Shown here: one piece after another, positions 8,754-38,254 of the stretch | How positions within the stretch are numbered: the first letter of the stretch is position 1 | How the letters are laid out: each line of letters begins with the position of its first letter | DNA from: Robertmurraya massiliosenegalensis JC6 | GTDB taxonomy: Bacteria; Bacillota; Bacilli; Bacillales; Cytobacillaceae | Length of the DNA stretch: 38,254 bases | Direction of reading: 5' to 3' | NCBI RefSeq assembly: GCF_000311725.1 | Contig: NZ_HE978511.1 | Location: forward strand, 1,025,789 to 1,064,042 | Program-made: the position numbers and the translations under genes | Notes under the pieces: generated by a model | Seen by the model: only the letters and a program-made list of their open reading frames with translations | Database searches by the model: none | Told to the model about the DNA's origin: nothing

Positions 8754-8783
8754 CGAATAAAACGGTTCAAAGATTCCATACTA
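8754..8783 (+). promoter_or_regulatory. Sigma-G (forespore) type promoter of the SASP gene
   Basis: CGAATA (8754-8759), a 17-bp spacer and CATACTA (8777-8783) fit the sigma-G consensus TGAATA/CATACTA with one mismatch. Transcription should start near 8790, giving a 5' UTR of about 125 nt before the SASP start codon. Confidence 0.75.
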
Positions 8784-8815
8784 TAAGTAAACACCGAAGC
8801 ACCAATACAATTCAC

Positions 8816-8881
8816 TGGGTTAAACCAAGTAAAGGTAGCAAGTTCACTTGCTTGCTGGTGCAATTCCAGCTAACCCAACCA
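8816..8881 (+). ncRNA. tRNA-like cloverleaf in the SASP 5' UTR (no anticodon loop)
   Basis: TGGGTTA (8816-8822) pairs perfectly with TAACCCA (8871-8877), as a 7-bp acceptor stem. It is directly preceded on the 3' side by a T-arm-like hairpin: GCTGG/CCAGC, 5 bp, with the 7-nt loop TGCAATT (8859-8865). After the acceptor come A (8878) and CCA (8879-8881), as in a tRNA 3' end. The middle arm AGCAAG/CTTGCT (8837-8842, 8847-8852) is closed by the tetraloop TTCA, so there is no anticodon loop. ACC/GGT (8824-8826, 8834-8836) gives a 3-bp D-like arm. At 66 nt it is too short for a working tRNA. It may be a pseudo-tRNA or a leader structure of the SASP mRNA. Confidence 0.55.
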
Positions 8882-8914
8882 TTATTCAAAAATCATGAAG
8901 GAGAGTGTACATCA

Positions 8915-9115
8915 ATGGCTAACAACAATTCTTCAAATCAACTTTTAGTACCTGGGGTATCTCAAGCACTAGACCAAATGAAGTATGAAATCGCTAACGA
9001 ATTTGGTGTAAACTTAGGTGCTGACACTACATCTCGCGCTAACGGTTCTGTTGGTGGAGAAATTACAAAGCGCTTAGTTCAAATGGCTGAGCAACAATTA
9101 GGCGGCAGCTTCTAA
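8915..9115 (+). CDS. Small acid-soluble spore protein, alpha/beta type
   Basis: The 66-residue protein begins [20 protein letters not shown] and contains [20 protein letters not shown] and [15 protein letters not shown]. These are the two conserved SASP blocks, including the EIA/EF germination-protease site. Such proteins coat and protect DNA in the dormant forespore and are degraded at germination. AAGGAGAG lies 10 nt before the ATG at 8915. The position corresponds to sspB in B. subtilis. Transcription is expected from the sigma-G-type promoter at 8754. Confidence 0.95.
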
Positions 9116-9160: not shown

Positions 9161-9185
9161 AGCCCCCTTCTTCATGAAGGGGGCT
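9161..9185 (+). terminator. Intrinsic terminator of the SASP gene
   Basis: AGCCCCCTTC (9161-9170) pairs with GAAGGGGGCT (9176-9185) around the loop TTCAT, followed by CCATTTTGTT. Confidence 0.85.
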
Positions 9186-13289: not shown

Positions 13290-13320
13290 ATTCATTCCTC
13301 CTTATCATTTTAAAAAACTA

Positions 13321-13385
13321 TAGTAAACGAGTTACCTCGTTTGCTAAAACAACTATTAGTAAACGAGTTACCTCGTTTGCTAAAA
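13321..13385. repeat. Two identical 29-bp dyad repeats in the bmr leader
   Basis: The same 29-bp sequence occurs at 13321-13349 and 13357-13385. Each copy contains AAACGAG-TTAC-CTCGTTT inside a longer imperfect dyad (TAGTAAACGAG / CTCGTTTGCTA). They lie between the leader terminator and the mini-ORF. As DNA they look like tandem operators for a TetR-type dimer; as RNA they would form two successive hairpins. Confidence 0.75.
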
Positions 13386-13393
13386 ATGGGATC

Positions 13394-37249: not shown

Positions 37250-37320
37250 AGCGGGTGATGGGAATCGAACCCACGACAACAGCTTGGAAGGCTGTGGTTT
37301 TACCATTAAACTACACCCGC
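37250..37320 (-). tRNA. tRNA-Gly (anticodon TCC)
   Basis: On the minus strand GCGGGTG pairs with CACCCGC as the acceptor stem. The anticodon arm ACAGC-CTTCCAA-GCTGT gives TCC, and the T-arm has GTTCGAT. The gene is 71 nt, discriminator T, with CCA not encoded. It is the last tRNA of the cluster. Confidence 0.95.
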
Positions 37321-37801
37321 ATATTTATTGAGATAATATTTATTTTTATTCACCTTATTTTGGCCTTACATGCCTCTAACTCTTATAGCAAATTCGAGGA
37401 TGCCTTGTCGTCGAGGCAACTCGCAGTCGATTCACAGATGCTTTGCTCGTGGCTGTGGTTTTACCATTAAACTACACCCGCATATTTATAGAAATTTTAT
37501 TAAGTCTTGTTTCCCATTTTTGGCCTTACATGCCTCTAACTCTTATAGCTAATTCGAGGATGCCTTGTCGTCGAGGCAACTCGTAGTCGATTCACAGATG
37601 TTTTGCTCGTGGCTGTGGTTTTACCATTAAACTACACCCGCATATTTATAGAAATTTTATTAAGTCTTGTTTCCCATTTTTGGCCTTACATGCCTCTAAC
37701 TCTTATAGTTAATTCGAGGATGCCTTGTCGTTGAGGCAACTCGTAGTCGATTCACAGATGTTTTGCTCGTGGCTGTGGTTTTACCATTAAACTACACCCG
37801 C
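37321..37801 (-). repeat. Three 160-bp tandem units each carrying a 5' half of tRNA-Gly
   Basis: The first 31 nt of tRNA-Gly recur exactly at 37451-37481, 37611-37641 and 37771-37801, spaced 160 bp. Each copy has the acceptor 5' strand, the D-arm and the 5' anticodon stem, and stops at C32, just before the anticodon. Each is followed on the minus strand by the same ~129-bp segment with a hairpin (TTGCCTCGA...AGGCA flanked by CGAG/CTCG) and GGCATGTAAGGCCAAAA. The unit next to the intact tRNA is more diverged; the outer two are nearly identical. None can fold as a full tRNA. Confidence 0.9.
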
Positions 37802-37832
37802 ATATTTATTATTGATAATTCTTATAAGGAAA

Positions 37833-37909
37833 TGGGGCGATCGATGGGAATCGAACCCACGAGTGTCGGAGCCACAATCCGATGCGTTAACCACTTCGCC
37901 ACGACCGCC
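37833..37909 (-). tRNA. tRNA-His (anticodon GTG)
   Basis: The minus strand begins GGCGGTCGTGGCGAAGTGG, with the extra G at -1 opposite C73. The anticodon arm TCGGA-TTGTGGC-TCCGA gives GTG. The 3' end encodes CCA (37833-37835). Confidence 0.95.
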
Positions 37910-37974
37910 ATTATTCTATTATTAAACTATACCCTTGCTCGGTTAGCTCTATACTTTCGCTACCGCGAAAACTT

Positions 37975-38112
37975 AATGAAAGCTATTTTACTTCGCTACG
38001 CTTCGTAAATAATGGTGCCTTATTTTCGCTATCGCGAAAAATCAATGAAAGCTATTTTACTTCGCTACGCTTCGTAAATAATGGTGCCTTATTTTCGCTA
38101 TCGCGAAAAAAG
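37975..38112. repeat. Two 69-bp tandem repeats between tRNA-His and tRNA-Tyr
   Basis: Units 37975-38043 and 38044-38112 are nearly identical, and a partial third copy (TTTCGCTACCGCGAAAA) precedes them at about 37955. Each contains a small hairpin TTTTCGC-TATC-GCGAAAA and the string ACTTCGCTAC, which also occurs in the complement of tRNA-Tyr (5' part), so a tRNA origin is possible. Confidence 0.8.
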
Positions 38113-38114
38113 GT

Positions 38115-38198
38115 TGGTGGAGGGGGACGGATTCGAACCGCCGAACCCGAAGGAGCGGATTTACAGTCCGCCGCGTTTAGCCACTTCGCTACCCCTCC
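38115..38198 (-). tRNA. tRNA-Tyr (anticodon GTA)
   Basis: The minus strand begins GGAGGGGTAGCGAAGTGGC. The anticodon loop CTGTAAA gives GTA. There is a long variable arm (CTCCTTCGGG) as expected for bacterial tRNA-Tyr, and CCA is encoded at 38115-38117. Confidence 0.96.
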
Positions 38199-38208
38199 AA
38201 ATAAAAAG

Positions 38209-38254
38209 TGGCTCAGGACGGAATCGAACCGCCGACACATGGATTTTCAGTCCA
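38209..38254 (-). tRNA. tRNA-Phe (anticodon GAA), 5' part outside window
   Basis: The 3' part is present: anticodon loop CTGAAAA (GAA), T-arm GGCGGTTCGATTCCGTC, acceptor strand CTGAGCC and discriminator A (38209). No CCA is encoded. The 5' half lies beyond the right edge. Confidence 0.9.

Follow-up and report, generated by a model that had tools for sequence, protein, structure and literature searches.

A conserved tRNA-like element in the 5' leader of an sspB-like spore protein gene of the Bacillales

Background

Why should the messenger RNA (mRNA) of a spore protein begin with a structure that resembles a transfer RNA (tRNA)? The question is raised by a window of 38,254 nucleotides (nt) of Robertmurraya massiliosenegalensis JC6 (assembly GCF_000311725.1, contig NZ_HE978511.1, positions 1,025,789-1,064,042, forward strand; "the window" below is this whole stretch), in which a 66-nt element at positions 8816-8881 lies in the 5' untranslated region (5' UTR) of a gene for an alpha/beta-type small acid-soluble spore protein (SASP), a major protein that shields DNA in the spore. 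An earlier, sequence-only reading had described a tRNA-like cloverleaf ending in CCA, and had suggested a decayed tRNA, a target of tRNA enzymes, or an element acting on the translation or stability of a forespore mRNA. The leader belongs to an ancient RNA family that is conserved throughout the Bacillales and precedes a single alpha/beta SASP gene, the sspB-like copy, in its 5' UTR. Its stems covary, its terminal RCCA (R, purine) is retained, and its D-loop and T-loop, which form the elbow of a tRNA, covary with one another; it is therefore a tRNA mimic that has been maintained rather than a tRNA that has decayed. Its likeliest function, which we put forward tentatively, is to have the 5' end of the mRNA trimmed by RNase P, an event that would leave a nuclease-resistant tRNA-like cap.

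The element and its fold

Folded alone, positions 8816-8881 form a cloverleaf of -23.5 kcal/mol against a mean of -14.8 for shuffled sequences (z -3.16; equalled by 1 of 200 shuffles), and the identical cloverleaf is found in the minimum free energy structure of the longer leader 8790-8935, for which z is only -1.45. Folding and direct reading bear out each part described in the sequence-only reading, namely the acceptor-like stem, the D-like arm, a middle arm with a tetraloop, the T-like arm and the terminal ACCA (Table 1); a lone A follows the 5' strand of the acceptor-like stem and a lone T precedes the T-like arm. The placement between a sigma-G-type promoter and the SASP ribosome binding site is likewise supported, with a sigma-G-like -10 element upstream and an open reading frame (ORF) of family PF00269 downstream, and in 149 of 187 distinct relatives the 80 nt before the element contain the motif CATNNTA (16% by chance).

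Distribution and linkage to the SASP gene

Searches with the window DNA found the leader in all seven genomes of the genus, its own included, and matched 71 of 193 family genomes at E<=0.001, two of the weakest matches (G011 and G014) covering mainly the part after the element; the element with a SASP gene downstream is present in 30 of the 30 family loci that this search returned. Of the 30 loci, 22 served to build a covariance model, R1, which covers the pairs of the acceptor, the D-like stem and the T-arm and leaves the middle arm unmodelled. Across the order (397 genomes, 47 family labels) R1 finds the element in at least 23 family labels, counted from matches of about 39 bits or more with 75-nt tRNA genes excluded, so the covariance search over sspB-like leaders that the sequence-only reading had proposed as a check came out in its favor; a SASP gene lies downstream in loci from 22 of these labels (f32 left out). 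Of the 44 genomes in the genus of G403, 35 are matched at E<=1e-4, and in a class sample of 398 genomes the 16 matches at E<=8e-6 all belong to the window's own genome, the same family or the same order. The tallies at E<=0.01 (188 of 193 family and 350 of 397 order genomes) are not counts of the element, because they include tRNA-Gln genes: R1 matches of 75 nt that score near 33-39 bits proved, wherever the sequence was inspected, to be such genes and were rejected. A separate 68-nt R1 match of 37.7 bits (L305, G104:C4:314683-315950) looks tRNA-like and no SASP gene was found downstream of it.

An exact pattern for the 3' half of the element (G55 in tRNA numbering, and RCCA), run against 84,980 genomes, gave 100 stretches; among 80 of these the names are of Bacillaceae type except for Sporosarcina globispora (L167), Paenibacillus bovis (L206) and Chryseobacterium (L213), and the latter two records are taken to be putatively mislabelled. 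The model, DNA and pattern hits together make a collection of 248 loci with 189 distinct elements (188 without L182), and a SASP signature lies within 600 nt downstream in 246 of them, a figure that describes hits and not all SASP genes. The other two are L156, whose contig ends after 44 nt, and L182, a tRNA-Gln gene among the 100 pattern stretches; a further tRNA-Gln gene (L296) and L305 had no SASP gene after them and were excluded before this count. Some loci are the same place twice (e.g. L136, L302 and L173), the upstream 40 nt plus the element giving 199 distinct places, and family loci L089-L118 were not added, many of them repeating L059-L088. L182 and L328 (which does hold the element) are omitted from the later tabulations, L087 also from the gap-free ones, and L256 and L281, which do not suit a fixed read-off, also from the middle-arm and first D-arm parse, the information profile, the counts at CCA, -3 and -2, and the elbow counts.

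The distance from the element to the start codon is 21-102 nt with a median of 32 (approximate count, n=132). The genome of the window has the element at one of the five SASP genes found and gives one strong R1 match. In G961 the element lies at complement(1050261..1050332), before a SASP protein; we take this genome and protein to be B. subtilis strain 168 and SspB, and B. subtilis sspB appears to carry this leader as well.

A second, weaker tandem copy precedes the one SASP gene at L136 (the same place as L302 and L173), L174, L180, L213, L288 and L289, which are Mesobacillus-, Cytobacillus- and Neobacillus-type records. The second copy at L136 has a canonical T-loop, TTCAATT, and a GG near its D-arm. 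Multiplication of the element apart from the gene is what might be expected if the leader were released as a small tRNA-like RNA acting in trans; this we consider very unlikely, as the element is linked to a single type of gene and stays within a limited range of the start codon, and its CCA hinders RNase Z (see below).

Covariation and the constant half

In 83 aligned matches (two of them second, weaker copies from loci already included) standard pairing holds in 96.8% of the cells of the 15 modelled pairs compared to 86.1% after shuffling, 11 pairs are changed on both sides compared to 7.6 (1 of 500 shuffles as high), cells with double changes number 127 compared to 26.5, and the covariation score is 0.335 compared to 0.135 (none of 500 as high); when the partners are slid by 1-3 columns pairing falls to 19-49%. 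This alignment is fitted to the structure and the shuffles do not remove relatedness, but the acceptor, T-arm and tail are adjacent, so their positions can also be read from the ends with no fitting. Such a count over 186 gap-free distinct sequences gives compensated changes in many rows at pairs 4-69, 5-68, 6-67, 50-64 and 51-63, and pair 1-72 is flipped from T-A to A-T in 5 of them. The acceptor, D-like and T stems thus covary. Stems lacking conservation or compensatory changes in relatives had been named beforehand as grounds for giving up the structure, and the opposite is seen. Presence in all seven genus genomes together with covariation across the order excludes a chance origin of the fold.

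The constant part of the element is the acceptor, the T-arm and the RCCA, and the "anticodon" arm varies widely. The element of the genus member L067 is 128 nt long in all, and elements of 52-57 nt under genus label g19 (L286-L291, L295) have hardly any middle arm; by the first parse, the stretch after the D-like arm folds more than 0.5 kcal/mol below the shuffled mean in 147 of 184 sequences.

The D-like arm has the form NCC-loop-GGN in 148 of 184 sequences, and the elbow counts therefore omit the other 36 and assign to GG any loop that also has AG. Where the T-loop has G55 the D-loop has AG in 125 of 133 cases (56% in shuffled loops), GG in 5 and neither in 3, and where it has U55 the D-loop has GG in 8 of 15, AG in 3 and neither in 4. 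When only distinct loop pairs are counted, a step that removes relatedness only in part, GG is present in 8 of the 15 that have U55 and in 3 of the 95 that have G55 (Fisher p 2e-6). The simple reading of these sequences would be a retained G19-C56 contact and a position 18 that changes together with position 55, as G18/U55 or A18/G55, with the 7 of 15 U55 cases that lack GG as exceptions to the rule; this covariation of D-loop and T-loop indicates a preserved tRNA elbow. An initial automatic parse of the D-arm was discarded as unreliable in favor of the fixed one; it had given GG with U55 in 10 of 16 and with G55 in 32 of 168 (5 of 168 unparsed; Fisher p 4e-4, relatedness not fully corrected). 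The tRNA-Gln gene L182, from Alkalihalobacillus sp. YIM B00296, also has G55 in its T-loop (TGCGAAT), like the SASP leaders.

With the loci chosen by the exact CCA pattern set aside, 135 distinct sequences remain, and in 130 of them the element ends in RCCA, with the caveat that CCA is part of both the DNA query and R1. The information content is 1.94 bits at the last A and drops to 0.69 one base later (n=132 of this set), and the base preceding CCA is a purine in 180 of 180 (137 A, 43 G). Five loci (L252, L257, L256, L312 and L346) retain the element with RCCA lost or altered and are natural test cases for the role of the CCA.

These features bear on another explanation, in which an uncut fold near the 5' end passively hinders RNase J1 or provides a ribosome standby site. 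The stable local structure and its position, near the 5' end and a short way before the start codon, are consistent with this, but a passive hairpin has no need of a T-loop, a covarying elbow or an unpaired RCCA, and we judge it unlikely.

Relationship to tRNA and to known systems

R1 gives the window's element 84.8 bits, and in 30 loci of that genome that hold tRNAs tRNA-Gln(TTG) has 33.1, tRNA-Trp 25.6 and tRNA-Cys 19.5. In plain alignments against 37 tRNA sequences taken from those loci tRNA-Gln is nearest to 123 of the 135 elements, and when the acceptor and tail are left out it is nearest to only 50 of 135 (tRNA-Cys to 29), so descent from tRNA-Gln is likely and rests largely on the acceptor stem. 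The tRNA-Gln(UUG) of the same genome is like the element in U1-A72, G2-C71, G3-C70, G4-C69, U6-A67 and A7-U66, in its 5-bp T-stem and NCCA end, and in a D-arm start, GCCAAG, found in many of the relatives; the element differs from it in lacking an anticodon loop, in its shorter D-loop, in having mostly G55 for U55, and in its location inside an mRNA. Likeness to tRNA-Gln would also be expected of a functionless, decayed tRNA gene, an explanation that the sequence-only reading had allowed. We regard it as extremely improbable, given a covariation score above all 500 shuffles, RCCA in 130 of 135 sequences and a SASP gene downstream at 246 of 248 loci; the interpretation in that reading is thus supported in part, its decayed tRNA being contradicted.

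The window's element is reported neither by ARAGORN nor by Rfam at gathering thresholds, at which Rfam finds only four tRNAs in the whole window, all at 37250-38254. At permissive E-values Rfam gives only weak matches to it, including a chance-level one to Plastid-ycf2 on the opposite strand, which in our reading resembles an antisense tRNA T-arm, and 1 of 20 relatives scanned barely clears the Rfam tRNA (RF00005) score (L249, 29.1 against 29). Of the features general to tRNA-like structures the element has the 7-bp acceptor adjoining a 5-bp T-stem, the 7-nt T-loop, the NCCA and, by covariation only, the elbow contact. Of those of canonical tRNA it lacks the anticodon arm with a 7-nt loop (6 bp and a tetraloop in the window, nearly absent to very long in relatives) and the G18-G19/U55-C56 elbow, mostly having AG in the D-loop with G55-C56. 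It is thus a conserved RNA family whose copy in the window has no match in Rfam 15 at curated thresholds. No description of this leader was found in the open-licence PubMed Central (PMC) literature, subscription papers on sspB being outside its scope, and it is unmentioned in the available portions of PMC3871023, PMC4634765, PMC4919913, PMC12016569, PMC7407066, PMC9040804 and PMC10731613.

Two known 5' leaders have a link to tRNA. The T-box riboswitch of Bacillota binds tRNA, whereas the SASP element resembles it; Rfam gives no T-box match, and there is no terminator-like site on the + strand between the element and the start codon, for which reason transcription attenuation was also dropped. 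The thrS operator of E. coli is a tRNA mimic in a 5' leader and imitates the anticodon arm, which is the variable part of the SASP element. A comparable regulatory site, in which a tRNA-binding protein (e.g. GltX or GatCAB) binds the other tRNA half and sets SASP translation, would fit the strict acceptor sequence, the closeness of whole elements to tRNA-Gln, the kept elbow and the lack of a terminator. It would not explain why no anticodon is kept in an arm that is variable or nearly absent, why tRNA-Gln is so much less often nearest once the acceptor and tail are removed, or why the U1-A72 pair flips in one clade, and the free 3' end required for charging is absent. We think such a site unlikely, and give it the weight we do because of the strict acceptor sequence and the conserved bases at -3 and -2 (see below). 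A short upstream ORF (ATG GGT TAA) was dropped since the A residues it needs at positions -1 and 8 are not conserved.

The 3' ends of plant virus RNAs are further tRNA-like structures that are grouped with those processed by RNase P. The latter include the precursors of transfer-messenger RNA and MALAT1/mascRNA, which, in the portions of PMC4919913 and PMC12016569 available, share with the element the acceptor/T half, a CCA-type end and a place in a longer RNA. All of these are 3' ends or separate RNAs, whereas the SASP element is in a bacterial 5' UTR, upstream of a coding region. Closer in this respect are hisCD and the pbuE adenine riboswitch, given as mRNA substrates of bacterial RNase P in the accessible part of PMC10731613; there the hisCD region is cut, with a proposed stabilising effect, and fits the RNase P consensus partly, whereas the SASP element conserves the stack, the T-loop and the RCCA and its cleavage is only inferred.

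A putative RNase P substrate

In the function that we tentatively prefer, RNase P would read the acceptor/T stack, T-loop and RCCA of the sspB leader and cut it before the first acceptor base, and the new 5' end would be a nuclease-resistant tRNA-like cap that protects the message. Such 5'-end protection, an idea built on the established behaviour of RNase J1, is the likeliest, putative, benefit of trimming. Aminoacylation, EF-Tu and CCA addition all depend on a 3' end that is free. CCA is an antideterminant for RNase Z (PMC4919913, as far as the portion consulted goes). For these reasons RNase P is the tRNA enzyme that fits best. By the rules given in the available part of PMC10731613, RNase P uses a 12-bp acceptor/T stack, a T-loop and the RCC of RCCA, which pairs with GGU of L15, prefers U at -1, and is inhibited by leader pairing with the RCCA; the stack, T-loop and 3' RCCA are all present in the element.

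Several observations weigh against this interpretation. U is not the main base at position -1, where 186 sequences have A in 87, T in 61, C in 29 and G in 9 and the window has C; U is preferred there but not strictly required. RCCA is missing or changed in L252, L256, L257 (AAAA), L312 (ACCC) and L346 (GCAA). The acceptor TGGGTTA is kept more strictly than RNase P needs, and a pyrimidine at -3 and a purine at -2 (window 8813-8814) are conserved with no known RNase P reason; these strict bases point to something beyond RNase P. Six genomes, all from families that lack a strong match, have 16 SASP matches (one with an internal stop), none with an R1 score above 8.9 bits (E 4.1, filters off) and with printed leaders that look short by eye, so SASP synthesis is not generally dependent on the element. 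PMC10731613, in the part available, doubts that alternative mRNA substrates compete with the abundant pre-tRNAs. A role in a long-lived message of the dormant spore is weakened by the consulted portion of PMC7407066, in which sspA and sspB transcripts are not among the abundant dormant-spore mRNAs, an earlier study having differed. The wider proposal, that a tRNA-Gln-like module became an mRNA cap in the Bacillales, that RNase P cuts the sspB leader in the forespore, and that the elbow was rebuilt with A18/G55 for G18/U55, is offered with slightly more reserve than trimming by itself.

Features of the locus

Table 1. Features of the SASP leader and gene, in window coordinates
Feature	Position	Strand	Basis
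Possible sigma-G -35 element, CGAATA	8754..8759	+	direct reading; sigma-G consensus
Sigma-G-like -10 element, CATACTA	8777..8783	+	direct reading; sigma-G consensus
Acceptor-like stem, 5' strand, TGGGTTA	8816..8822	+	folding, pair counts, covariation
D-like arm, 3 bp, ACC-AAGTAAA-GGT	8824..8836	+	folding, covariation; loop has the AG that accompanies G55
Middle arm in anticodon-arm place, 6 bp and tetraloop, AGCAAG-TTCA-CTTGCT	8837..8852	+	folding; relatives vary in length and sequence
T-like arm, 5 bp, directly adjoining acceptor stem, GCTGG-TGCAATT-CCAGC	8854..8870	+	folding, covariation
Acceptor-like stem, 3' strand, TAACCCA (7 bp with 8816-8822)	8871..8877	+	folding, covariation
Discriminator and CCA, ACCA, last bases of conserved element	8878..8881	+	RCCA conservation
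Ribosome binding site, GAAGGAG	8897..8903	+	direct reading
Alpha/beta SASP gene, sspB-like, 66 amino acids	8915..9115	+	PF00269, 85.5 bits, E 2.5e-24
Likely intrinsic terminator of SASP mRNA	9161..9185	+	consensus scan only

The neighbours of the SASP gene are a YheC/D-type ATP-grasp gene, a DUF5342 gene and an ABC transporter gene, which presumably resemble the yhe-sspB neighbourhood of B. subtilis. Elsewhere in the window, a 160-bp tandem repeat of 3.2 copies (37290-37809, - strand) lies beside an intact tRNA-Gly(tcc) gene, each unit holding the 5' part of that gene, and accounts for three weak 49-nt tRNA matches; a 69-bp tandem repeat (2.3 copies, 37955-38110) lies between the tRNA-His and tRNA-Tyr genes, and a 36-bp one (2.2 copies) is at 13311-13386.

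Conclusions

Since sspB is a classic gene of sporulation, a tRNA mimic seems to have gone unrecognised in a textbook mRNA. The element is a natural test of which half of a tRNA a cellular RNA must imitate, and the A18/G55 variant of its elbow offers a useful case for testing the tertiary structure of tRNA. It also offers a direct way to ask if RNase P shapes mRNA ends in development; if the proposed trimming is true, a housekeeping tRNA enzyme would set the 5' end and the life of a developmental mRNA.
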